Virus record (IMG/VR): IMGVR_UViG_3300018426_000192
Span: 1-21,551 of that record
DNA: 21,551 bases
Reading direction: 5' to 3' (one strand)
From: a virus
Below the pieces are notes generated by a model. That model saw nothing but the letters and a program-made list of their open reading frames with translations. It had not been told where the DNA came from and did not search any database. The number at the start of each line of letters is the position of its first letter. Within the stretch, counting starts at the first letter, position 1. Of this stretch, positions 9,327 to 21,551 are shown piece after piece. Both the position numbers and the translations under genes were made by a program.

Positions 9327-11183
9327 ATGGACGTTTCAAATAGAATTTTATCAGACATTACCGTACATATGAAGTACGCAAAATATAACGAAGACCTACA
9401 ACGTAGGGAAACGTGGGAAGAACTAGTTACTAGAAACAAAGAGATGCATCTAAAAAAATATCCACAGCTTGCTGATGAAATTGAAGATGTTTATAAACTC
9501 GTATATAATAAAAAGGTATTGCCTTCTATGAGGTCATTGCAATTTGGCGGCCGGCCGATTGAAATATCACCTAATAGAGTTTATAATTGTGCATATCTGC
9601 CGATTGATGATTGGCGCGCCTTTGGCGAAACAATGTTTTTATTATTAGGCGGTACAGGTGTTGGATATTCAGTACAAAGACACCATGTAGAAGACTTACC
9701 TGAAATACGTAAACCAAATCCAGAACGTCATCGAAGATTTTTAATTGCAGACTCAATTGAAGGTTGGGCTGATGCGGTTAAAGCGCTTATGAAGTCATAT
9801 TTTTATGGTGGGTCAAAACTAAAATTCGACTTTTCAGATATTAGACCAAAGGGCGCTCGATTAGTAACGTCCGGAGGTAAAGCGCCAGGACCGCAACCAC
9901 TAAAAGAATGTCTTGTAAAGATAGAAGGCATGCTATCCGAAAAAAATGACGGTGATAAGCTATCGCCAATTGAGGTTCATGATATAGTATGTCATATTGC
10001 CGATGCAGTATTAGCCGGCGGTATTCGTAGAGCAGCTCTCATATCTTTATTTTCAGCGGATGATGATGAAATGATTTCTTGCAAATCTGGAAATTGGTGG
10101 GAAACATCACCGCAACGGGGACGTGCAAATAACTCGGCAGTACTATTACGCCATCGTATTACAAAAAACTTCTTCAATGATTTATGGAAGCGAGTAGAGT
10201 TATCCGGAGCAGGTGAGCCTGGTATTTACTTTTCGAATGATAAAGATTGGGGAACAAATCCATGTTGTGAAATTGCTTTAAGACCATTCCAATTTTGTAA
10301 TCTATGTGAAGTTAATGTATCGAATATCGAATCTCAAGAGGATTATGATAATAGGGTAAAGGCAGCTGCATTCATAGGAACATTACAAGCTGGTTATACA
10401 GATTTCCACTATTTACGGCCGGTATGGCAACGTACGACGGAAAAGGATGCATTAATAGGCGTATCGATGACCGGAATAGGGTCTGGTACAGTATTAGGCT
10501 ATGATATGAAGCGAGCAGGTAAGTTAGTTAAAGAAGAAAATGCTCGTATAGCTAATATTATTAATATTAACAAATCTTCTAGATGCACAACGGTTAAGCC
10601 AGCTGGCACAACGTCTCTTACATTAGGAACGTCATCTGGTATACATGCCTGGCATAATGACTACTACATAAGACGAATTAGAGTAGGTAAAAATGAATCA
10701 ATATATCATTATCTAAGAGAATATCACCCAGATTTGATTGAGGATGAATATTTTAGACCCCATGATACAGCCGTAATAAGTATACCGCAGAAAGCACCGG
10801 ATGGCGCTATAATGAGGACAGAGTCGCCATTCCAGTTACTAGAGCGAGTTAAGCGAGTTACTCAAGAATGGATCCGTCCAGGACATAGAACCGGTGCTAA
10901 TACACATAATGTATCTGCCACGATTTCTCTAAGAGAACATGAATGGGAAGCTGCCGGAGAATGGATGTGGGATAATAGAGAATTTTATAATGGATTATCT
11001 GTATTACCATATAATGGAGGTACATACACACAAGCACCATTTGAAGATATAGATAAAGAGACATTCGACCGGATGATGAAATCTCTTAAAGATGTGGATT
11101 TAACAAAAGTCGTTGAAATGGAAGATGAGACAGATTTGTCAGGTGAATTAGCATGTGCCGGCGGCTCATGCGAAATTGTATAA
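9327..11183 (+). CDS. Adenosylcobalamin-dependent ribonucleotide reductase (class II, monomeric type)
   Basis: The 618-residue protein reduces ribonucleotides (probably triphosphates) to deoxyribonucleotides using coenzyme B12, giving the phage dNTPs without oxygen or a small subunit. Visible features are VYNCAYLPI with C88 (first active-site cysteine), FLLLGGTGVGYSVQRH, TNPCCEIALRPFQFCNLCEV with C313/C314 near the radical cysteine, the nucleotide-phosphate loop KPAGTTSLTLGTSSGIH, and the C-terminal shuttle pair CAGGSC (C610 and C615). The order and motifs match monomeric RTPR of the Lactobacillus leichmannii type rather than dimeric NrdJ. It is shorter than that enzyme (739), mostly through smaller insertions. 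The start is supported by AAAGGA. The dyads upstream suggest it is regulated separately from the replication genes. Confidence 0.85.
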   Translation: MDVSNRILSDITVHMKYAKYNEDLQRRETWEELVTRNKEMHLKKYPQLADEIEDVYKLVYNKKVLPSMRSLQFGGRPIEISPNRVYNCAYLPIDDWRAFGETMFLLLGGTGVGYSVQRHHVEDLPEIRKPNPERHRRFLIADSIEGWADAVKALMKSYFYGGSKLKFDFSDIRPKGARLVTSGGKAPGPQPLKECLVKIEGMLSEKNDGDKLSPIEVHDIVCHIADAVLAGGIRRAALISLFSADDDEMISCKSGNWWETSPQRGRANNSAVLLRHRITKNFFNDLWKRVELSGAGEPGIYFSNDKDWGTNPCCEIALRPFQFCNLCEVNVSNIESQEDYDNRVKAAAFIGTLQAGYTDFHYLRPVWQRTTEKDALIGVSMTGIGSGTVLGYDMKRAGKLVKEENARIANIININKSSRCTTVKPAGTTSLTLGTSSGIHAWHNDYYIRRIRVGKNESIYHYLREYHPDLIEDEYFRPHDTAVISIPQKAPDGAIMRTESPFQLLERVKRVTQEWIRPGHRTGANTHNVSATISLREHEWEAAGEWMWDNREFYNGLSVLPYNGGTYTQAPFEDIDKETFDRMMKSLKDVDLTKVVEMEDETDLSGELACAGGSCEIV

Positions 11184-11639: not shown

Positions 11640-12578
11640 ATGAGTTTATTAGCAGTAATAGGGTTTTGCCTCGCCGGTTATTCAGTTATAGCCAACGATA
11701 GTGTTCAGACATTAGGCACATGGATCGCATCTAACAGAGAAAAATTTAAATGGTACGTTATGTGGGCCGCAGCTTCCGCAGTAATGATAGGTACCATGGT
11801 TTATGGATGGTATGTTTATGATGGAGACATATCATACGGAAGATTAACTAAAATACCTTTCCAAGAAGTACAATGGTATCATGCATTAGCGCCATTGGCA
11901 CTAGTTGCACTTACTAGAAAAGGTATCCCTGTATCTACTTCATTCCTTGTACTTTCTGCATTTGCATCTACATTTGTTTTGGAAAAGATGCTACTAAAGA
12001 GTGTAGTAGGATATGGATTAGCAGCGATAGTAGCATATACACTTTGGTTTGTTATTTCCAATTTCTTTGATGAAAATAAAGATATTAAAGAAGAAAATAA
12101 AAAATATTGGAGAATAGGACAATGGTTCACTACAGGATTCCTGTGGTTTACTTGGTTGTCTCATGATGTAGCTAACATTGCCGTATTCTTACCACGTCAG
12201 CTTTCAGTTGTTGAATTGATAGGAGTAATTACTTTCTTTACAATAGGGTTGGGATGGATCTTCTATCAACAAGGTGGAAAGATTCAACAAATCGTACTAG
12301 ATAAACAAAACACTAAATATGTCAGATCAGCAACGTTGATTGATTTGGTGTATGCCTTTTTGCTACTTTATTTTAAGCAGATAAATAATATACCGATGTC
12401 TACCACTTGGGTATTCGTTGGTCTACTTTGTGGACGTGAGCTTGCTCTCAATACGTATTTAACAAAGAAAGGTAATTTAAAGCAAGTGTTCCCTATTGTA
12501 GCTAAAGACTTTTTGAAGCTATTGGTAGGATTGTTAGTCTCTGTAGCGATAGTGTTACTAATACATTATGTACTTTAA
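11640..12578 (+). CDS. PiT-family inorganic phosphate transporter
   Basis: The 312-residue protein has about ten hydrophobic segments and the duplicated signature of the PiT/PHO4 family. The first repeat has VIANDSVQTLGT (N19-D20) and later IPVSTSFLV. The second has LSHDVANIAVFLPR (H175-D176) and IPMSTTWVFVG. The family normally reads GANDVANA and PVSTTH, so the acidic residue and the STS/STT loops are kept while the second Asn is His. PiT proteins import phosphate with a cation across the inner membrane. A phage could use one to sustain phosphate supply for DNA synthesis in starved cells. Five of seven Arg codons are AGA and there is no ribosome-binding site, unlike most neighbours. This suggests recent transfer, together with the gene upstream and the peptide overlapping its end. 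Confidence 0.75.
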   Translation: MSLLAVIGFCLAGYSVIANDSVQTLGTWIASNREKFKWYVMWAAASAVMIGTMVYGWYVYDGDISYGRLTKIPFQEVQWYHALAPLALVALTRKGIPVSTSFLVLSAFASTFVLEKMLLKSVVGYGLAAIVAYTLWFVISNFFDENKDIKEENKKYWRIGQWFTTGFLWFTWLSHDVANIAVFLPRQLSVVELIGVITFFTIGLGWIFYQQGGKIQQIVLDKQNTKYVRSATLIDLVYAFLLLYFKQINNIPMSTTWVFVGLLCGRELALNTYLTKKGNLKQVFPIVAKDFLKLLVGLLVSVAIVLLIHYVL

Positions 12579-12669: not shown

Positions 12670-12839
12670 TAAAAGACTGGATTCAAGAGTTATACATTAA
12701 TGAATATTTATTAATGAATGATAAGACTAAAGCAAATTGTAGAGCAGACGTACGAACCGATAAAGGTCGGTGCGAGTCGATTAGCAGATACACAACATCC
12801 AGATACGGAGATAATACCGCAAGACAAGATAACATCTGA
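12666..12839 (+). CDS. Possible small ORF (57 aa) overlapping the start of the pterin dehydratase gene
   Basis: ATG 12666 lies in an ATGA overlap and has AAAAGG six to twelve bases upstream, so ribosomes are likely to start here. The first ~17 residues (MIKDWIQELYINEYLLM) look protein-like. From 12718 on, the frame runs across the pterin dehydratase gene in another frame and reads as random sequence rich in Arg, Asp and Thr. It may be a translational-coupling leader for the dehydratase, a truncated gene or a chance frame. Confidence 0.25.
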   Translation: MIKDWIQELYINEYLLMNDKTKANCRADVRTDKGRCESISRYTTSRYGDNTARQDNI

Positions 12840-13101
12840 ATTATCAAAAGTAGGTGCCAAAGAATGGACTGCAGAAGTTAATGAAAAAGGCATTGTACAG
12901 ATAAAGTTAGATCGTAAATTTGAAAATTATAAGAAGACTGTTAAGTTTATTAATGATGTTGTAAAAATTAGCGAAAAAATGGATCACCATGCTGATATTG
13001 CATTTACATATGATACAGCTACAGTAACTATTTTTTCTCACTCACATAACGCAATTACAAATAAAGATATTGAGTTCGCAGATGCTGTTTCAAAGAAATA
13101 A
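12718..13101 (+). CDS. Pterin-4a-carbinolamine dehydratase (PCD/DCoH family)
   Basis: Residues ~48-127 carry the PCD fold. WTAEV opens the first strand, then a helix, then SEKMDHHADIAFTY with the HH pair at 90-91, FSHSHNAIT with H108/H110, and NKDIEFADAV with the conserved Asp. The family dehydrates 4a-hydroxytetrahydropterin. At 127 residues it carries an N-terminal extension of ~40 residues (MIRLKQIVEQ...). A TGA at 12715 closes the frame just upstream, fixing the start at or after 12718, where there is no ribosome-binding site; translation probably depends on the small overlapping frame at 12666. It may act on the pterin pool shared with FolE and QueD encoded downstream, but that link is inferred. 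PCD is not part of the standard preQ0 route. Confidence 0.75.
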   Translation: MIRLKQIVEQTYEPIKVGASRLADTQHPDTEIIPQDKITSELSKVGAKEWTAEVNEKGIVQIKLDRKFENYKKTVKFINDVVKISEKMDHHADIAFTYDTATVTIFSHSHNAITNKDIEFADAVSKK

Positions 13102-14001: not shown

Positions 14002-14289
14002 ATGTTTAAGTTTAAAGACGTCGACGTCACGTTTAATTTCAACAAGCTTCCGAAATACGATCAAGAATATCTTCGGACCATGGCATATGAAACCGTACAG
14101 ACCAATTCTGTACAGAATACCGGCATTTCATTTAATCAAACGTATCCAAATGCTAGTAACTTCATGATGTTCAATGACGAAGCTAAGATGCATGCAGCAA
14201 TGTCTGAATTTGCACATAAGATGGAATGTACGGCATCGCATTTGTTGCATGGTAAGAAGTACTGGATGGCGTGGACATATGAAGGTTAA
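14002..14289 (+). CDS. Small protein of unknown function (95 aa)
   Basis: A complete frame from ATG 14002, preceded by an AT-rich stretch (TCATATATTAA at 13972-13982) resembling the promoter-like motif of other genes but with a ~20-nt leader. The protein is soluble and rich in Asn, Met and aromatics, with YDQEYLRTMAYETVQ in the middle and HGKKYWMAWTYEG at the end. No motif is recognised. It precedes queD by eight bases, and AAGGAG spans its stop codon, so it is probably cotranscribed with the deazaguanine genes. Its function may be linked to them or not. Confidence 0.55.
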   Translation: MFKFKDVDVTFNFNKLPKYDQEYLRTMAYETVQTNSVQNTGISFNQTYPNASNFMMFNDEAKMHAAMSEFAHKMECTASHLLHGKKYWMAWTYEG

Positions 14290-14297
14290 GGAGTATT

Positions 14298-14735
14298 ATG
14301 TATAGAAGTTATAAAGAATTTAATGGATATAGTACGGCATTTAGACAATGGCGTGCAGATTCGCATTGTAGATATATCCATGGTTATGGGATTCATTTTA
14401 AAGTATGGTTCGAAGGTGATCTAGACGAACGTAACTGGGTATGTGATTTCGGTTGTTTTAAACGAAATGGCATTAAAGATGAATTATCACATATGTTTGA
14501 TCATACAACAATTGTAGCAATTGATGATCCATATCTAGATGAATTTAAAAAATTACATGATTCGGATTTGCTACAACTTCGTATCATGAATGATGTCGGC
14601 TGCGAAAAGTTTGCAGAATGGGTTTACAATGTTGTCAATCGTATGATCAAAGAAGAAACTAAAGGCCGAGTTAATGTATATAAAGTACAGTGCTGGGAGC
14701 ATTCTGAAAATATGGCGGAGTATTATGGCGACTAA
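14298..14735 (+). CDS. queD: 6-carboxy-5,6,7,8-tetrahydropterin synthase, QueD-like (phage form)
   Basis: QueD converts 7,8-dihydroneopterin triphosphate, the FolE product, to 6-carboxytetrahydropterin, the substrate of QueE. The 145-residue protein has the family layout: SHCRYIHGYGIHFKVWFEGD (C24 as the catalytic cysteine, H28 and H33 as likely metal ligands), NWVCDFGCFK, MFDHTTIV (D68-H69), the PYLDEFKKL segment and a C-terminal WEHSEN with E134. It departs from the standard pattern. The first zinc His (AAHR) is replaced by Phe in STAFR, and HGH becomes HGYGIH. From memory this variant is shared by QueD-like proteins of marine T4-like phages. AAGGAG lies four bases before the ATG. It overlaps queE by 11 nt. 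Confidence 0.75.
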   Translation: MYRSYKEFNGYSTAFRQWRADSHCRYIHGYGIHFKVWFEGDLDERNWVCDFGCFKRNGIKDELSHMFDHTTIVAIDDPYLDEFKKLHDSDLLQLRIMNDVGCEKFAEWVYNVVNRMIKEETKGRVNVYKVQCWEHSENMAEYYGD

Positions 14736-15501
14736 GAGAATTGAAGATTATGATAAAGTGCTACCAATTAATGAATTGTATAGATGTGTACAATCAGAAG
14801 GTAGTAGATTTGGCAGACCGACAATTGCAATTCGAGTAACAGGCTGTACTCATAGATGTTGGTTCGGCGAAGGCGGTTGGTGTGATAGTTGGTATTCATC
14901 TATACACCCAGAGAAAGGTAAGTATACTTTCAATGATATTATCGATATTTATGATAGGAATCCGCATGTAAAAGAAATGATGTTGACGGGCGGGTCACCG
15001 ACTATGCAGCCTGCTCTGGTAAATGAATTAATGCATCTTGCTCAGAGTAAAGGCATAACAGTAACTATTGAAACTGAGGGGTCGCATTTTGTTGAAACTG
15101 ATTACCCGATTGATCTCATTTCTCTTAGTCCTAAGTTTTCTAACTCTGTCCCTGAGTTGGGTATTAGTACGCCCGGCGGTAAGATTGTTGATGAAAGGTT
15201 TATCCGTCAGCATGAGAAGTATAGACTTAATACTCAGGCAATTCGAGAAATGATTGACTTTCATAAGGATTATCACTACAAACCGGTTTGGGATGGTACC
15301 GAACAATGTTTAAAAGAACTAGAACAATATCGTATAGAATTAGGAATTCCCAAAGATAAAACATATATTATGCCTGCAGGAGATACTAGAGAACAGTTAA
15401 TTAAAATGTATCCGTTAGTATTTGAGCTCTGTGCAGAACATGGTTATAACATGACCGGCAGAGACCATATCATAGCATTTGATACAGATCGAGCAGTATA
15501 A
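14725..15501 (+). CDS. queE: 7-carboxy-7-deazaguanine synthase, QueE-like radical SAM enzyme
   Basis: QueE rearranges 6-carboxytetrahydropterin to 7-carboxy-7-deazaguanine by radical SAM chemistry. The 258-residue protein shows RCVQSEGSRFGRPTIAIRV (the QGEG/GxPt opening), a cysteine motif C41-X3-C45-X7-C53 in place of the usual CX3CX2C, LTGGSPTMQP (the GGEP site that binds SAM), ETEGS and ISLSPKF (the SPK motif). ATG 14725 is chosen because GGAG lies four bases upstream and the protein then starts at the conserved region. An in-frame ATG at 14674 would extend it into queD and is less likely. The overlap with queD indicates translational coupling. Activity is likely, but the wider loop between the second and third Cys is unusual. 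Confidence 0.85.
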   Translation: MATKRIEDYDKVLPINELYRCVQSEGSRFGRPTIAIRVTGCTHRCWFGEGGWCDSWYSSIHPEKGKYTFNDIIDIYDRNPHVKEMMLTGGSPTMQPALVNELMHLAQSKGITVTIETEGSHFVETDYPIDLISLSPKFSNSVPELGISTPGGKIVDERFIRQHEKYRLNTQAIREMIDFHKDYHYKPVWDGTEQCLKELEQYRIELGIPKDKTYIMPAGDTREQLIKMYPLVFELCAEHGYNMTGRDHIIAFDTDRAV

Positions 15502-15512
15502 AGTAGATACAA

Positions 15513-15698
15513 ATGAAAAAGTTATTTTTTATGTTAATTGCTGCATGTTTCGTATCTTGTACGATTCCTGCAGAGAACAAAATTATTATAGTGCAACCTG
15601 GTAAAAATGCACATAAAACAGATGTAATATTCTTACCAGATAGTATTGTATTACATAACTACGTCATGTCACATAGAGCAGAGGAAGAACTAAAATGA
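15513..15698 (+). CDS. Small lipoprotein (61 aa)
   Basis: MKKLFFMLIAACFVSC is a lipoprotein signal peptide with a lipobox ending at C16 (FVSC). The mature part is ~45 residues, with a short beta-like stretch (KIIIVQPG) and a charged end (RAEEELK). It should be attached to the inner or outer membrane on the periplasmic side. Possible roles are an Rz1-like outer-membrane spanin, superinfection exclusion or envelope modification; its distance from recognised lysis genes makes spanin only a guess. Its stop overlaps the GroES-like gene as ATGA. Confidence 0.55.
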   Translation: MKKLFFMLIAACFVSCTIPAENKIIIVQPGKNAHKTDVIFLPDSIVLHNYVMSHRAEEELK

Positions 15699-16006
15699 AA
15701 ATGAAGCCAACAGGTGACCAGGTATTGTTGAAAAAACAACAAGGTCAAGAAAAAACTAAATCAGGTATCATTCTTACAGCGAATGATGATAATTATCAAT
15801 ATGCCGATGTCATTGCATGCGGTCCTGGATTATTTACACAAACTGGAGACCGTATCCCGATGACAGTTTCCCCTGGTGATGTTGCATTACTACACGGCCG
15901 TTTATTGAGAGGTGATAATGAAGTTATATTAGATAACGAGACATATTTGTTAGTTAGAGAGTCTGATATATCAATGATTTCAACAGGAAATGGCAATGAC
16001 AAATAA
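15695..16006 (+). CDS. GroES-like co-chaperonin
   Basis: The 103-residue protein matches GroES along its length: KPTGDQVLLKK at the start, KTKSGIILT as the mobile loop and its flank, YADVIACGPG, SPGDVALLHG, and NETYLLVRESDI at the end. Phage co-chaperonins such as T4 gp31 cap host GroEL to fold large phage proteins, usually the capsid protein. This one looks closer to cellular GroES in sequence and length than gp31 does. It begins in the ATGA overlap with the lipoprotein gene (a second in-frame ATG lies at 15701). It overlaps folE by 11 nt. No GroEL gene is in the window, so it probably pairs with the host chaperonin. Confidence 0.85.
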   Translation: MKMKPTGDQVLLKKQQGQEKTKSGIILTANDDNYQYADVIACGPGLFTQTGDRIPMTVSPGDVALLHGRLLRGDNEVILDNETYLLVRESDISMISTGNGNDK

Positions 16007-16670
16007 AGTGAATTTAGAACTCGTTCGCCAAGGTTTTGCTAACGGCGTTGCTGCAGGCCGGCCATTAACGGATGACGAAAAAGATGAAATGATAACTAAT
16101 GCAGCGGCCGCCTTCGGTGAATTTCTAGATGCGTTGAAATGTGATTGGCGCGACGATCCTAACTCAAACGATACACCTAGGCGTGTTGCGAAAGCATATG
16201 TTAATGATTTATGGGCTGGTCGATATGAAGCACCACCATCAATCACTGCATTCCCATCCGATGGATATGATGGTATGGTGTTCGAAGGCGGTATACCGCT
16301 GACATCAATGTGTTCACATCACCATCAAACTATTATGGGTAAAGTGCATGTAGCATATATACCAGGTGAGGATAGTAAAGTTATAGGTCTTAGTAAACTT
16401 AATCGCTTGGTAGAACATTTTGCTCGACGCGGAGCTATACAAGAACAACTAACCGTAGCGATACATAATGCAATTGATTCAATTATTGACAATAATAATG
16501 GAGTTGCGGTTATGATTGAAGCTACTCATAATTGTGTACAATGCCGCGGTGTAAAACATGGAGGTGCTAGTATGAAGACAAGTAAGTTGACAGGTGCATT
16601 CAAGAATGACCCAGCAACTAGGAATGAATATTATGAATTCGTGAGAGGTTATGGAAATTTTAATACCTGA
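15996..16670 (+). CDS. folE: GTP cyclohydrolase I, FolE
   Basis: FolE converts GTP to 7,8-dihydroneopterin triphosphate, the first step of preQ0/queuosine (and folate) synthesis. Key sites are present: MCSHHHQTIMGKVHVAYIP with C106 and H109/H110 at the zinc and active site, VIGLSKLNRLVEHFARR, the QEQLT segment (QVQERL block), and HNCVQCRGVKHGG with C180 as the third zinc ligand. From ATG 15996 it is 224 residues, close to E. coli FolE (222). This start is preferred to ATG 15990 because AGGA (15985-15988) is then seven bases away. With queD and queE encoded just upstream, it most likely feeds 7-deazaguanine synthesis. It overlaps the phosphoribosyltransferase gene by 20 nt. Confidence 0.9.
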   Translation: MTNKVNLELVRQGFANGVAAGRPLTDDEKDEMITNAAAAFGEFLDALKCDWRDDPNSNDTPRRVAKAYVNDLWAGRYEAPPSITAFPSDGYDGMVFEGGIPLTSMCSHHHQTIMGKVHVAYIPGEDSKVIGLSKLNRLVEHFARRGAIQEQLTVAIHNAIDSIIDNNNGVAVMIEATHNCVQCRGVKHGGASMKTSKLTGAFKNDPATRNEYYEFVRGYGNFNT

Positions 16671-17154
16671 GTATAAAATAGAGCGTCGTGTACGTGCTAT
16701 GGCACATACAATATCAGAGGAACATAAGAATAGCGGCAATGCATATCCACCTGTAATGGTATGTGTATTGAACGGCGGCTTTATGTTTTTTACTGATATA
16801 GTACGAGATATGGGTATCGATATTGAAATTGATTTTATACGGCCTAAGTCATATCATGGCCGAGATAATTCGCAGGGCGTACAATTTACAAAAGGAATAG
16901 AAACTGACCTACGAAATAAACACGTATATATCATTGAAGATATTGTGGATACGGGCGCAACTATGAAAGAAATATTGGACCGGTTAGCACAACACGAGCC
17001 AGCTAGTGTCAAGATTGTAACTTTAGTAGAGCGTAACGGAACTGCATTTCCAGCCGACCATACGTGCTTTACTATTGGCGATGAATGGGTTGTCGGTTAT
17101 GGTTTTGATGACGACGGTCTAAAACGTAACTATAGAAACATATACAAGATATAA
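16651..17154 (+). CDS. Hypoxanthine/guanine-type phosphoribosyltransferase
   Basis: The 167-residue protein follows the HPRT family throughout: VMVCVLNGGFMFFTDIVRDM, DFIRPKSYHG, the PRPP-binding motif VYIIEDIVDTGAT (E96-D97, D100), and EWVVGYGFDDD near the end. The family joins a purine base to PRPP, giving a nucleotide. The position equivalent to human HPRT K165, which contacts the purine O6, reads E127 in TLVERNG, so base preference may be altered. The gene overlaps folE by 20 nt and belongs to the same transcription unit. It could therefore handle guanine, hypoxanthine or a deazaguanine base. Purine salvage is the default reading; a deazaguanine role is speculation. Confidence 0.8.
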   Translation: MEILIPEYKIERRVRAMAHTISEEHKNSGNAYPPVMVCVLNGGFMFFTDIVRDMGIDIEIDFIRPKSYHGRDNSQGVQFTKGIETDLRNKHVYIIEDIVDTGATMKEILDRLAQHEPASVKIVTLVERNGTAFPADHTCFTIGDEWVVGYGFDDDGLKRNYRNIYKI

Positions 17155-17155
17155 C

Positions 17156-17311
17156 ATGAATCATCCAGATCCACTTAAACATCAATACGTGAGTTTCGCT
17201 AAATCTGCTATACGTATTATTGGCTATATTTGTTTACCATTTCATTTGCCTTTAGCCGTAGGAGTACTTATATTAAGCGAAGCAGTTGGAATTATTGAAG
17301 AGCTCGTTTAA
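17156..17311 (+). CDS. Small membrane protein (51 aa)
   Basis: ATG 17156 lies one base after the phosphoribosyltransferase stop, and the TAA overlaps the polymerase ATG as TAATG. The frame exactly fills a gap that would otherwise be 156 nt. The sequence opens MNHPDPLKHQYVSFAKSAIR, then residues ~19-46 form a hydrophobic stretch with a central Pro, and it ends in the acidic IIEELV. From memory, similar tiny proteins lie next to polymerase genes in other marine T4-like phages. Function unknown; it might anchor something to the membrane. Confidence 0.6.
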   Translation: MNHPDPLKHQYVSFAKSAIRIIGYICLPFHLPLAVGVLILSEAVGIIEELV

Positions 17312-19791
17312 TGTATCAAGCAATAGCATATCGTAAAGCTGATAACTCAGTACATATATGGGATGATAGAAAAGGATATCATTCATTTAAATATAAATCA
17401 TATGCATATCGCAAGTCTGATTGGGGCGATTGTGTTGCATTAGATGGCAATCGCGTTTCAAAAATATATGACTTCGATCGTGATGAGCAAGGATTATATG
17501 AGTCTGATATCAACCCAGAAACTCGTACATTGATAGACTTATACACAGATTCCGATGAAGCATCTATCGGTCATCGTACGTTGTACATTGATATCGAGGT
17601 TGATGTGGAAGATGGGTTTCCTACGCCAGAGACTGCTGAAAATGAAATAACATCGATTGCAATATATGATGCTGCGGGTGATGAAAAGTTTGTATGGATC
17701 CTAGATAAAAATGGCGATGTGCCATCGATGAAGCGTGATAACTTATCTACGATATCATGTGCAACCGAATATGAGTTGTTACAAAAATTTATGGGTAAGT
17801 ATCATGAAATTCAGCCTACAATTATTACGGGCTGGAATATCGACTTTTTTGATATCCCATACTTATTCAATCGTATGGTCAATGTAATGGGACAGCAGTT
17901 TGCTCGTTCATTATCGCCTATTAAAGATGTTATATGGCTTAAACACCGCAATCGTTATCGTATTTCAGGTGTATCGTGTTTGGATTATATGGCGTTATAT
18001 AAAAACTTTACATATTCTCAAGAATCTAGTTATTCGTTAGAAGCTATTTCGCAGAAAGAATTAGGTAAAGGTAAGATTAAATATGACGGCACATTAAACG
18101 ATCTATTAAAAGATGATATACAGAAATATGTCGATTATAATATGAATGACGTAGATCTTGTCGTTGAATTAGATGATAAGATGAAATTGATTGACCTTGC
18201 AAGAGGTATTTGTCATAAAGGTCATGTGCCATATGAAGATTTCTTATTTGCAACTAGATATCTTGATGGAGCTGCATTAACATACCTTAAACGTAATGGT
18301 ATAGTAGCACCAAGTAGAGCACCGAGAAATTCAGATGAGCCATTAGACTTATTAGGAGCATATGTAAAGGCACCGAATCCAGGTAGATATAAATGGGTAT
18401 ATGACCTTGACTTAACATCTTTGTATCCTAGTATTATCATGACACTTAACGTTTCACCAGAAACTAAAGTAACTAAGTTAGATAATTTTGATGGCAAAGG
18501 TTATGTTAAAGGCACTGGTACTCATTATACAGATGGATGGAATGGATGGGAGTCTGCAGCTGATCTTAAAGCATATTTAGAATCAAATGACTATTCTATT
18601 GCAGCGAACGGCGTTGTATATGATCGTAAATTAAACGGCTTTTTGCCGTCCATACTTGATAAATGGTTTAATGAACGCGTAGAGTACAAAAATTTACGTA
18701 AGAAGTTTGAAAAGGAAGGTGATACTGCTAAAGCAGTTTATTACGATCAAATGCAACTTGTTACTAAAATTCTTTTGAATTCATTTTACGGCGTATTAGG
18801 CAATCCTGGATTTAGATTCTTTGATCCAGATAATGCGGTTGCTATTACGAGTACCGGACAACAACTTATCAAGTTTACTGCAGATATAGGCAATCAATAT
18901 TATCGTAAAGAACTTGGTATTGATAAAGATTATTGCATTTATACGGATACAGACTCTACATTCTTTTCATCTTTGCCATTGATAGAGAAACGATATCCGG
19001 AGTATGATATAACTGATGAAAAGTGGATGGCGGATAAGACAATTGAAATTGCATCCGAAGTACAGAATTTCATAAACAATGCATATGACTTATATGGTAA
19101 GCGGTTTCATAATGTTGACACGCATAGATTTGATATTAAACAAGAGTTTGTAGCAAAAGCCGGCCTTTGGATTGCAAAGAAACGATATGCTCAATGGCTA
19201 ATTAATCAAGAGGGGCATACAATTTCTCGACTTGATGTAAAAGGGTTAGACGTCGTACGGTCATCATTCCCGCCGGCATTTAGATCATTTATGGCAGAGG
19301 TCTTAGAAGACATACTCAATGATATTGATAAGACAGACTTAGATGAAAAGATATTGTCATTTAAAGAGTCTATCAAGTCTCGCGATTTGTTAGAAATAAT
19401 GTTTCCGGTAGGTGTTAAAAACGTTACCAAGTATTTGACAAAAGGCGCATCACCATTCGCGCCTGCAGCAAAAGGTACGCCTGTACATGTTAAATCTGCT
19501 ATTAATTATAATGATATGTTACGATATCATAAAATTAAATCAGTACGTAGTATAATTAATGGTGAGAAGATTAAATGGACATATCTAAAAAAGAATCCAA
19601 TGAATCTTAATTCAATTGCAATGAAAGGTTATGAAGACCCGCAGCCGATTGTAGATTTTGTTAATCAATATATAGATCATGATAAGATCTTTAAATCTTC
19701 TTTTGAAAATAAACTAAACGATTTTTATGATGCCCTTGATTGGGGCAGAATACCCGAAAACAATAATTTGGGTAAATTCTTTGCTTTCTGA
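17311..19791 (+). CDS. 43: DNA polymerase family B, gp43-like replicative polymerase
   Basis: All exonuclease and polymerase motifs are present. Exo I is TLYIDIEVD (D94, E96), Exo II is ITGWNIDFFDIPYLFNR and Exo III is DYNMNDVDL. Motif A is DLDLTSLYPS (D367), motif B is KILLNSFYG (486-494) and motif C is YTDTDS (544-549). The enzyme should copy the phage genome with proofreading, together with the gp32-, UvsX- and gp41-like proteins encoded upstream. It has 826 residues against 898 for T4 gp43. The C-terminal end, LDWGRIPENNNLGKFFAF, resembles the sliding-clamp-binding tail of the family. The start at 17311 overlaps the preceding stop by one base. Intact catalytic residues mark it as the main replicative polymerase. 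Confidence 0.93.
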   Translation: MYQAIAYRKADNSVHIWDDRKGYHSFKYKSYAYRKSDWGDCVALDGNRVSKIYDFDRDEQGLYESDINPETRTLIDLYTDSDEASIGHRTLYIDIEVDVEDGFPTPETAENEITSIAIYDAAGDEKFVWILDKNGDVPSMKRDNLSTISCATEYELLQKFMGKYHEIQPTIITGWNIDFFDIPYLFNRMVNVMGQQFARSLSPIKDVIWLKHRNRYRISGVSCLDYMALYKNFTYSQESSYSLEAISQKELGKGKIKYDGTLNDLLKDDIQKYVDYNMNDVDLVVELDDKMKLIDLARGICHKGHVPYEDFLFATRYLDGAALTYLKRNGIVAPSRAPRNSDEPLDLLGAYVKAPNPGRYKWVYDLDLTSLYPSIIMTLNVSPETKVTKLDNFDGKGYVKGTGTHYTDGWNGWESAADLKAYLESNDYSIAANGVVYDRKLNGFLPSILDKWFNERVEYKNLRKKFEKEGDTAKAVYYDQMQLVTKILLNSFYGVLGNPGFRFFDPDNAVAITSTGQQLIKFTADIGNQYYRKELGIDKDYCIYTDTDSTFFSSLPLIEKRYPEYDITDEKWMADKTIEIASEVQNFINNAYDLYGKRFHNVDTHRFDIKQEFVAKAGLWIAKKRYAQWLINQEGHTISRLDVKGLDVVRSSFPPAFRSFMAEVLEDILNDIDKTDLDEKILSFKESIKSRDLLEIMFPVGVKNVTKYLTKGASPFAPAAKGTPVHVKSAINYNDMLRYHKIKSVRSIINGEKIKWTYLKKNPMNLNSIAMKGYEDPQPIVDFVNQYIDHDKIFKSSFENKLNDFYDALDWGRIPENNNLGKFFAF

Positions 19792-19810
19792 AAAAAACAA
19801 CTTATATTAA
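19788..19810 (+). promoter_or_regulatory. Promoter-like motif CTGAAA-N7-CTTATATTAA
   Basis: CTGAAA (19788-19793) overlaps the end of the polymerase gene; CTTATATTAA (19801-19810) ends four bases before the ATG at 19815, which has no ribosome-binding site. The spacing is identical to the copies at 1474 and 13787. Confidence 0.4.
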
Positions 19811-19814
19811 CATT

Positions 19815-20255
19815 ATGATAGGATATAAAGAACATTGGCTTGGTATCGAATGTGAGGGTCGATACTCAGGCATGAAGACAGTATTTATTGGCGATATTAG
19901 TACTAATATGCTTGATACATTTGTACCAAAATACCCACATATATACTTTTGCTCCACGGCTACTACACAATTGATTAATAACGACGTCGCCGGCCGTACA
20001 TGGGAATGGTTTTTGAATTGGATTTTAGATCATAACATATTAGTAACATTAGAAGTTAACTTCGCAGATCTACGTAATGTGCCCGCGGCGATACGTAATA
20101 AAGTACATATCATGTACATGTATCATGATAGTGATTTTGATTTGCTAAAATCTACAGATTCTATTAAAGTAGTGCATGATTCGTATAGTCTGCATTGCAT
20201 TACAAAATATAATATGCAAAAGGTTACATCAGATGGATATACAAACGACAAATAA
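19815..20255 (+). CDS. QueE-like protein lacking the radical-SAM cysteines, or unknown (146 aa)
   Basis: I do not recognise this gene with certainty. The opening HWLGIECEGRYSGMKTVFIG resembles the QueE N-terminus (SIQGEGRxxGxPTVFxR). Later NILVTLEVNF resembles the strand holding the ETNG motif, and LKSTDSIKVVHD resembles the DxxKFV segment. No CX3CX2C or related cysteine cluster is present; the three Cys are dispersed. If related, it would be a shortened paralogue without iron-sulfur chemistry, perhaps a substrate-binding or partner protein. It has a promoter-like motif just upstream and overlaps the glycosyltransferase gene by 23 nt, in a block that continues into the TGT-like gene. The alternative is a phage protein of unknown fold. 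Confidence 0.4.
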   Translation: MIGYKEHWLGIECEGRYSGMKTVFIGDISTNMLDTFVPKYPHIYFCSTATTQLINNDVAGRTWEWFLNWILDHNILVTLEVNFADLRNVPAAIRNKVHIMYMYHDSDFDLLKSTDSIKVVHDSYSLHCITKYNMQKVTSDGYTNDK

Positions 20256-20793
20256 TACATTATTTATTGTAGACCTTGAACCCGTAGAAACTAGATATAC
20301 TGGAGAATGGAAGACACATATACCGAAGCTGTTGCGAGAGTCCTTAGATATTGGCGCGGTGGAAATTATCGAAGGACCAGACGATATTCCGGCGGCCACG
20401 ACCCCCGGAGCTTTTCTGAATTTTGGAGGAACGAACATCTACAAGAGCGCGCAGATGATGCAAATTGGCCGCCTATTCTGTGAAGGAAAGGTTAAGCCCG
20501 GTGATCAATTTCTTTATACAGATGCATGGAATCCAACTATATTGCAATTAAAATATATGAGTCAATTATTGGACATTCCAATTAAGATACATGCTCTCTG
20601 GCATGCAGGTAACTACGACGAAAATGATTTCTTAGGACGTCTTATAAAAGATAAATGGGTTAATCATTGTGAGCATGCTATGGCCGAAGCAATTGACTAT
20701 AATTGGTTTGCCAGCGATTATCATATTCGATTATTTCAAAGTAAATTTGGATTCGATTGTTCGAAGCTACGGACAGATAGGCCTATGGAGTAG
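20233..20793 (+). CDS. GT-B glycosyltransferase, N-terminal part, ends at in-frame TAG
   Basis: ATG 20233 is chosen over the in-frame ATG at 20176 because AAAAGG lies about nine bases upstream and because it shortens the overlap with the previous gene to 23 nt. The 186 residues look like the acceptor-side domain of a GT-B glycosyltransferase: TLFIVDLEPVETRYTGEWK, PGAFLNFGGTN, FLYTDAWNPT, ALWHAGNYDEND and FASDYHIRLFQSKFG. The frame stops at TAG 20791 after RTDRPME. The same frame continues without a gap into the sugar-nucleotide-binding half, so this is probably one gene of ~355 residues with a nonsense codon. Bases ~20341-20460 are about 52% G+C, well above their surroundings (about 30% at 20521-20580). 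Confidence 0.6.
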   Translation: MDIQTTNNTLFIVDLEPVETRYTGEWKTHIPKLLRESLDIGAVEIIEGPDDIPAATTPGAFLNFGGTNIYKSAQMMQIGRLFCEGKVKPGDQFLYTDAWNPTILQLKYMSQLLDIPIKIHALWHAGNYDENDFLGRLIKDKWVNHCEHAMAEAIDYNWFASDYHIRLFQSKFGFDCSKLRTDRPME

Positions 20794-21303
20794 TTTGAAA
20801 GTACAATTACGCCGACAACACATAAAAGAGATTTAATTTTATTTCCGCATAGGATTGCTCCAGAGAAACAGCTTGATATCTTTAAAGATTTGCAAAAACA
20901 TATACCTGAATATGAATTTGTTGTATGCCAAGAAGACAAGTTAACGAAAGAACAATACCATAAACTACTTAGAGAAGCACGTATGGTTTTTTCAGCTAAT
21001 CTGCAAGAGACATTAGGTATTTCGTGTTATGAAGGATGCTTGGCAAACGCAATCCCATGTGTTCCAGATCGCTTAAGTTACTGCGAGATGTATGATGATA
21101 CATTTAAATATCCTAGCGAATGGACAGAGTCATATGAGTCATATGAAGCAAATCGGCATAAACTTATAAAATATATTCGCACAATGATGAGTCAACCGGA
21201 ATCGCAAATATTCCCTAAGTTGTCTGTACAATCAAAATTTTTGCATGATCATTATTTTTCATGTAATGATCTAATCAAGGAAATTAATGAACTCGCTCGA
21301 TAA
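20794..21303 (+). CDS. GT-B glycosyltransferase, C-terminal part, same frame after the TAG
   Basis: The frame continues from the TAG for 169 residues. It reads RDLILFPHRIAPEKQLDIF, then PEYEFVVCQ, MVFSANLQETLGISCYEG and PCVPDRLSYCEMY. These are the donor-binding domain motifs of GT-B (GT4-like) enzymes: the opening FxxRxxxxKQ strand-loop and the ExxG-type motif (ETLGISCYEG) that holds the nucleotide sugar. There is no ATG near the beginning (the first usable codons are TTG 20890 or ATT), so independent translation of a working protein is unlikely. The donor sugar and the target are unknown; a modified DNA base is possible given the TGT-like gene that overlaps its end by 17 nt. Confidence 0.55.
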   Translation, partial: FESTITPTTHKRDLILFPHRIAPEKQLDIFKDLQKHIPEYEFVVCQEDKLTKEQYHKLLREARMVFSANLQETLGISCYEGCLANAIPCVPDRLSYCEMYDDTFKYPSEWTESYESYEANRHKLIKYIRTMMSQPESQIFPKLSVQSKFLHDHYFSCNDLIKEINELAR

Positions 21304-21551
21304 AGAATTTATATATTATCCGTCATTATCTGCTGGCGGCTTTGCATCATCATTGATCAAAGATCAGAAACTATCATCAGGTACTACGTGTAGATTTTAC
21401 TCTGATGAATATCCTGAAAAATTTCGGCATAAGTATTTTTTGATCACAGCTGGGCATTACTATAAGAAGATGGATATTCGCCAGCAATTTGGCTTAGGCG
21501 ATGATACATTGGTATTTGGTGATAGTGGAGGATACCAAATTGCAACAGGTG
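21287..21551 (+). CDS. dpdA: tRNA-guanine transglycosylase-like protein, DpdA candidate (3' end outside window)
   Basis: ATG 21287 overlaps the glycosyltransferase end by 17 nt and has AAGGAAA a few bases upstream. The 88 visible residues open EFIYYPSLSAGGFASSLIKD and reach TLVFGDSGGYQIATG. This matches the TGT motif TDSGGFQVFS, whose Asp takes part in base exchange. TGT-fold proteins swap guanine for a 7-deazaguanine. In phages the DpdA branch does this in DNA, inserting preQ0-type bases that protect against restriction. FolE, QueD and QueE in the same window make DpdA the best reading. A phage-borne tRNA enzyme is the alternative, because the part that tells the two apart lies beyond the window. 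Confidence 0.65.
   Translation, partial: MNSLDKEFIYYPSLSAGGFASSLIKDQKLSSGTTCRFYSDEYPEKFRHKYFLITAGHYYKKMDIRQQFGLGDDTLVFGDSGGYQIATG

Follow-up and report, generated by a model that had tools for sequence, protein, structure and literature searches.

A QueC-less 7-deazaguanine gene set that travels with its own glycosyltransferase in phages: a probable DNA hypermodification system

Phages such as 9g and CAjan carry known 7-deazaguanine systems in which FolE, QueD, QueE and QueC or Gat-QueC are combined with the transglycosylase DpdA (Hutinet et al. 2019, PMC6884629). We analysed a gene block in a 21,551-base fragment of an uncultured phage from IMG/VR (IMGVR_UViG_3300018426_000192; this whole stretch is called the window here), whose plus strand encodes, from position 14002 to the right edge, a 95-residue open reading frame (ORF), QueD, QueE, GroES, FolE, a hypoxanthine-guanine phosphoribosyltransferase (HPRT), a family B DNA polymerase (PolB), a 146-residue protein, a glycosyltransferase (GT) and the start of a protein resembling tRNA-guanine transglycosylases (TGTs; Table 1). 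Like the 9g and CAjan systems, this type of locus brings FolE, QueD, QueE and a TGT-superfamily transglycosylase together in one phage locus. Unlike them it is without QueC or Gat-QueC, its transglycosylase is far from the DpdA of 9g (profile-profile probability 0.3%), and it has a dedicated GT, two further protein families that we call c3 and c4, and a phosphoribosyltransferase (PRT). We think it reasonably likely that this is a QueC-less 7-deazaguanine DNA hypermodification system with a glycosyltransferase of its own: a widespread gene set that probably swaps guanine in phage DNA for a look-alike and then adds a sugar.

A search for relatives returned 35 loci (labelled L001 and so on), and the complete order of genes from the 95-residue ORF through to the TGT is repeated in at least 11 long contigs, so the operon arrangement exceeds chance. 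The association of the GT with the deazaguanine genes extends well beyond this group. When the viral contigs of IMG/VR were searched with the GT alone, at least 591 relatives were confirmed; in the best 80 of these loci, a TGT, FolE or QueE gene was always found within 10 kb of the GT (80/80). Where at least 8 kb was available on both sides of the GT (23 loci), TGT and QueE were present in every case, FolE in 22, c3 and c4 in 21 each and a PRT in 18, and a reversed-protein control on the GT loci gave no matches. Among cultured phages, all 16 records with a GT match covering at least 79% of the query fall in five lineages (PA5oct/Paride, Phosso, ACP17, X1 and BUCT-ZZ01). One genome was inspected per lineage, and QueE lies near the GT in all five, with FolE and TGT either close by or at another place in the genome; in Phosso, some 170 kb separate the TGT from the GT. 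The TGT of X1, ZZ01 and ACP17 is of a different type from that of the window. The GT is thus paired with two distinct TGT types, and the linkage is no by-product of one phage lineage: judged by gene content, the GT travels with the pathway and not with one particular transglycosylase. Around a more distant GT match in Xanthomonas phage PhiXhv-15 (24% identity), the annotation shows no que genes. Roughly 25-30 of the other GT loci (L102-L181) encode two GTs of the same component in tandem. A preliminary description, made from the window alone, had guessed at a glycosylated deazaguanine, and the comparative genomics of the GT supports this guess strongly.

That description had also seen no QueC, which holds more widely. 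QueC and Gat-QueC were found in none of 21 records of the window's group, many of which are fragments, and QueC was also missing from three complete genomes (Paride, Phosso and phiST) and from 19 of a further 20 long records. The suggestion that the product is preQ0 is consequently not supported: with no phage QueC, the encoded pathway ends at 7-carboxy-7-deazaguanine (CDG) unless the host supplies the enzyme, and the best reading of the gene content is that the inserted base would be CDG or a derivative, not preQ0. Work by Cui et al. in 2023 is said to have found the deoxynucleosides of CDG and of 7-deazaguanine (dCDG and dDG) in phage DNA and to have predicted a decarboxylase, DpdL. For the type of system described here, c4 (phrog_17812, about 125 residues) is a candidate for the CDG decarboxylation step. 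It adjoins the GT in most lineages, is present in phiST, and occurs in a 129-kb contig of the window's group, where some 46 kb separate it from the operon. Its conserved residues are G16, H18, P21, A23, H44-x-H46, S87-C-E89 and E114-D115, a histidine set that resembles, as a similarity of motif only, the zinc triad of QueD without the catalytic cysteine. The c4 family was rejected as a plain QueD homologue on a weak profile match (2-5%). Neither c3 nor c4 profiles matched solved structures significantly; for c4, PDB entry 2dj6, which we take to be a PTPS-like protein, was matched with an E-value of 0.57.

In the scheme that we propose, FolE, QueD and QueE would make CDG, which c4 may process, and the TGT-like enzyme would replace guanine in phage DNA by the deazaguanine. 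HPRT or another PRT would recycle the guanine released by this base exchange. A retaining GT4-type enzyme would then glycosylate the inserted base, with a nucleotide-sugar as donor, and the sugar would shield the phage DNA from nucleases. We are confident that the deazaguanine pathway acts on DNA, and we hold just as firmly that the GT is part of the same pathway. That virion DNA contains a glycosylated base is somewhat favoured. Opinion is evenly balanced on the most specific version, a large class of phages with glycosylated 7-deazaguanine made from CDG without QueC and carrying the sugar on the 7-carboxyl, or on C7 after decarboxylation by c4. The attachment may be a carboxylate ester, a C-glycoside at C7 following decarboxylation, or may involve host-made preQ1.

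Several observations weigh against this scheme. The glycosylated base is a prediction from gene content, and the carboxylate, the only obvious acceptor in CDG, is an unusual one for a retaining GT. QueC and QueF supplied by the host could yield preQ0 or preQ1; in X1, FolE has an N-type pyrophosphatase-like gene as its neighbour, and the remaining one of the 20 long records has a short match to PF06508 (QueC) above the cut-off. The structural model of the TGT-like protein is of low confidence (pLDDT 66), and the GT copy in the window is interrupted. Finally, sugar-nucleotide oxidoreductases speak for the scheme in roughly one in four of the other GT loci (UDP-glucose dehydrogenase in 24, alcohol dehydrogenase in 16 and GFO/IDH/MocA proteins in 15 of the 80), but no sugar-nucleotide dehydrogenase of these kinds was found in the window's group, where a sugar of the host would have to serve as donor. 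A cupin of the cysteine-dioxygenase type is another recurrent neighbour in the other GT loci (L102-L181).

A rival account would have these phages make an ordinary QueC-less deazaguanine modification, dCDG or dDG, with the GT a mere neighbour whose target lies elsewhere, perhaps among the surface glycans of the host. Cellulophaga phage phiST would fit such an account, having QueD, QueE, FolE and c4 but neither QueC nor a detectable GT of the window's family, as would the other GT4-type genes that the window's phage group carries well outside the operon. We nevertheless judge it unlikely, given that the GT stands beside TGT, QueE or FolE throughout the 80 sampled loci, in five cultured lineages and with two TGT types.

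The TGT-like gene is cut short by the end of the contig. The 88-residue fragment on its own had no match in family-profile searches, and a PF01702 search of the window's own record found nothing because of this truncation. The rest of the gene, sought beyond the contig end, was recovered as a complete copy encoding 402 residues in a near-identical contig (L001:845-2053; 99.3% identity to the window over 1,109 bases). As a single sequence, the full-length protein gave only noise against solved structures and scored 19.4 bits against PF01702, where the Pfam cut-off is 26.3. The family profile, however, matched TGTs in the PDB, with E-values of 1.2e-6 for archaeosine TGT and about 1e-4 for the human and bacterial enzymes. 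Across 14 diverse members, D79-SGG-Q84 (D79SGGYQ84 in the window's family), D115 and D243 are invariant, and we read the three aspartates as the putative base-binding, second and nucleophilic residues of TGTs. The orthologue from the window's group also has a putative zinc site, C-x3-C-x2-C plus a histidine (the TGT family pattern is C-x-C-x2-C...H), but many close orthologues lack two of the three cysteines; zinc cysteines are likewise lost in Paride and Phosso. In the TGT genes of L002, L008, L014, L018 and L034 (for example L002:10001-11236), PDSLGDPAC replaces PCSLDCPAC.

These data place the edge gene in a deep branch of the TGT superfamily (PF01702). In profile-profile comparison, the proteins of Phosso, Paride and Vibrio phage 2.275.O are clear relatives and the TGT group of X1, ZZ01 and ACP17 a distant one (94%), and the probability was 14% for E. 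coli Tgt and 2.8% for the immuto DpdA. A TGT-like gene that is 40% identical, and forms a divergent branch, was seen at L035:1022-2224 on a 6.9-kb contig in which no further operon gene was detected. An AlphaFold model of the TGT-like protein had a single Foldseek match below 1e-3, to the DpdA structure 7ui4 (5.5e-5, TM score 0.37). The preliminary description had called the gene TGT/DpdA-like; superfamily membership stands, and close kinship to a characterised DpdA does not. By its profile, the branch lies outside every DpdA group sampled (9g, immuto and X1/ZZ01/ACP17; DpdA3 and DpdA4 were not compared). Its gene context suggests that the enzyme may act like DpdA, and since no sampled DpdA type matches closely, that name would apply as a functional analogy and not as membership.

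Could the enzyme instead modify tRNA, so that the whole gene set would raise queuosine-type modification in infected cells? In sequence comparison, the profile does find tRNA TGTs of solved structure (archaeal, bacterial and human) and not DpdA, and the window's group has a zinc site resembling the one in archaeosine TGT. We consider this very unlikely, however: QueC is absent, the zinc cysteines are widely lost among close orthologues, E. coli Tgt is not closely similar, DpdA is the best fold match of the model, and the neighbouring GT and replication genes fit a DNA substrate.

FolE, QueD and QueE were confirmed by profile matches, and the start of the TGT-like gene through its full-length relative, as parts of one phage block. 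FolE, QueD and QueE, first described as three consecutive genes, are interrupted (QueD-QueE-small ORF-GroES-FolE-HPRT). In an alignment with phiST, immuto, ACP17, ZZ01, Paride and 9g, the zinc motif of the window's QueD is altered, reading HGY where 9g has HGH, and this HGY type is common to the window phage, phiST, immuto, ACP17, ZZ01 and Paride. The first zinc histidine of the 9g enzyme is missing from the aligned phage QueD-like enzymes, Paride excepted; c4 has a QueD-like histidine triad. For QueE, the start at 14725 is preferred over 14674, and the cluster cysteines C40, C44 and C52 are invariant, spaced C-x3-C-x7-C in the window's clade.

HPRT falls just short of the TIGR01203 equivalog cut-off (149.4 against 150 bits). 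It had been credited with an altered base-contact residue, but the position matching human Lys165, aligned by eye, is K, Q or E across orthologues; there is no conserved change, and a specificity switch at this residue was rejected on account of that variation. A PRT lies about 1-8 kb from the GT in 14 of 20 long records, and PRTs are also found in Paride, ZZ01 and immuto. It is highly improbable that the PRT converts the base into a nucleotide which the phage polymerase then incorporates as modified dGTP: such a route has been proposed for Campylobacter phages (PMC6884629) and would suit both an HPRT next to PolB and the PRTs recurring beside the GT in other lineages, but every fully sampled GT locus has a transglycosylase, which makes it unnecessary, and the window's HPRT, which comes close to an equivalog of guanine salvage enzymes, has a putative base-contact residue that is not conserved in altered form.

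The glycosyltransferase, first seen as separate ORFs amid the pathway genes, is a single gene: ORFs 20176-20793 and 20890-21303 belong to one reading frame, split by a TAG at 20791-20793. This stop is unique to the window, being absent from L001 and from 15 relatives. Because the relatives are intact and because the differences between the otherwise near-identical window and L001 cluster around the stop, the comparison suggests a local sequence error or, less likely, a real mutation. Recoding of the stop was rejected, since L001 and the 15 relatives have none there. The motif E255-x7-E263 and the donor-binding residues R203 and K208 are invariant. The AlphaFold model (pLDDT 86) has a GT-B fold, with 105 Foldseek matches in the PDB at E<=1e-3, led by BshA (2.4e-8) and MshA and including SenB; the sequence profile had no match to solved structures at E 0.01 or better. 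By modelled fold and motif, the protein is a clear retaining GT4/GT-B enzyme. Two more GT4-type glycosyltransferases lie downstream of the operon in one relative (L008:16601-18055 and 18052-19383) and also in L031.

The 146-residue protein upstream of the GT had been described as a QueE-like protein without the cluster. This was rejected, as the profile-profile probability with QueE is 0.5% for the window's protein and 0.2-0.4% for the c3 profile. Its match to c3 in profile-profile comparison is weak (45%); in other loci, c3 has about 175 residues and lies between TGT and GT. The 95-residue ORF had no match in family-profile searches, and within the window's phage group it invariably adjoins QueD on the upstream side. 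PolB is context, outside the deazaguanine pathway; the same fragment also encodes a family A polymerase-like protein (1501-2844). A pterin dehydratase, named in the preliminary description among the pathway genes, was confirmed (12718-13101, 1.6e-17), lies outside the 14298-21551 range, and is carried by only some relatives. Elsewhere in the window are a class II, B12-dependent ribonucleotide reductase (9327-11183) and a phage-encoded phosphate transporter of the PHO4/PiT type (11640-12578, 6.4e-11). GroES lies inside the window's operon, and in one relative a GroEL gene is found downstream of the TGT (L031:13757-15373).

Table 1. Genes of the operon at the right edge of the window, with window coordinates and supporting matches (E-values unless stated otherwise)
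Feature	Position	Strand	Evidence and remarks
95-residue ORF	14002..14289	+	directly upstream of QueD; 53-69% identity, same place in 11 long relatives
QueD-like 6-carboxytetrahydropterin synthase	14298..14735	+	PTPS 4.7e-18; phrog_2389 6.7e-36
QueE, 7-carboxy-7-deazaguanine synthase (radical SAM)	14725..15501	+	phrog_2076 4.6e-48; Radical_SAM 6e-8
GroES-like co-chaperonin	15695..16006	+	Cpn10 7e-18; position inside operon conserved
FolE, GTP cyclohydrolase I	15990..16670	+	PF01227 4.5e-48; phrog_2197 3.3e-63; 81-87% identity in relatives
HPRT	16651..17154	+	TIGR01203; adjacency to FolE conserved
PolB, family B DNA polymerase	17311..19791	+	ORF; 74-86% identity, same position in relatives
Putative c3-family protein, 146 residues	19815..20255	+	upstream of GT; c3 profile of 66 other GT loci, 7e-4
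GT4-type glycosyltransferase, single gene	20233..21303	+	in-frame reading; split in the window by TAG 20791-20793
TGT/DpdA-like transglycosylase, 5' part	21287..21551	+	truncated by contig end; first 88 codons

If the proposed scheme is right, a deazaguanine bearing a sugar would add a new class to the known DNA hypermodifications and merge the two best-known anti-restriction strategies. Restriction, including the type IV restriction of phage DNA, CRISPR and DNA sequencing would probably all be affected. It would also give a functional context to three unexplained families, the window-type GT, c3 and c4. Cultured representatives exist, so direct testing is possible. In the papers searched in full text, neither a glycosylated deazaguanine nor a GT of the window's family was reported; the novelty is provisional.

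Among described phages, a deazaguanine synthesis and incorporation system has been noted in the jumbo phage PA5oct, in a paper whose text does not mention the GT, c3, c4 or PRT (PMC7824862). PA5oct belongs to the same lineage as Paride, with TGT-like, GT, QueE, FolE and QueD genes. Cellulophaga phage phiST resembles the window's system in its QueE (62% identical), its HGY-type QueD, the presence of c4 and the absence of QueC, and differs from it in that a GT of the window's family was undetected by tblastn; Cellulophaga phages are those in which Cui et al. (2023) reportedly encountered dCDG and dDG. The most familiar sugar-bearing bases of phages are pyrimidines such as hydroxymethylcytosine. 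The alpha- and beta-glucosyltransferases of T4, which act on that base, would be the nearest functional parallel, a post-replicative transfer of sugar to a phage base. The likeness is one of function; base and pathway differ, and the best fold matches of the window's GT are the GT4 enzymes BshA and MshA.

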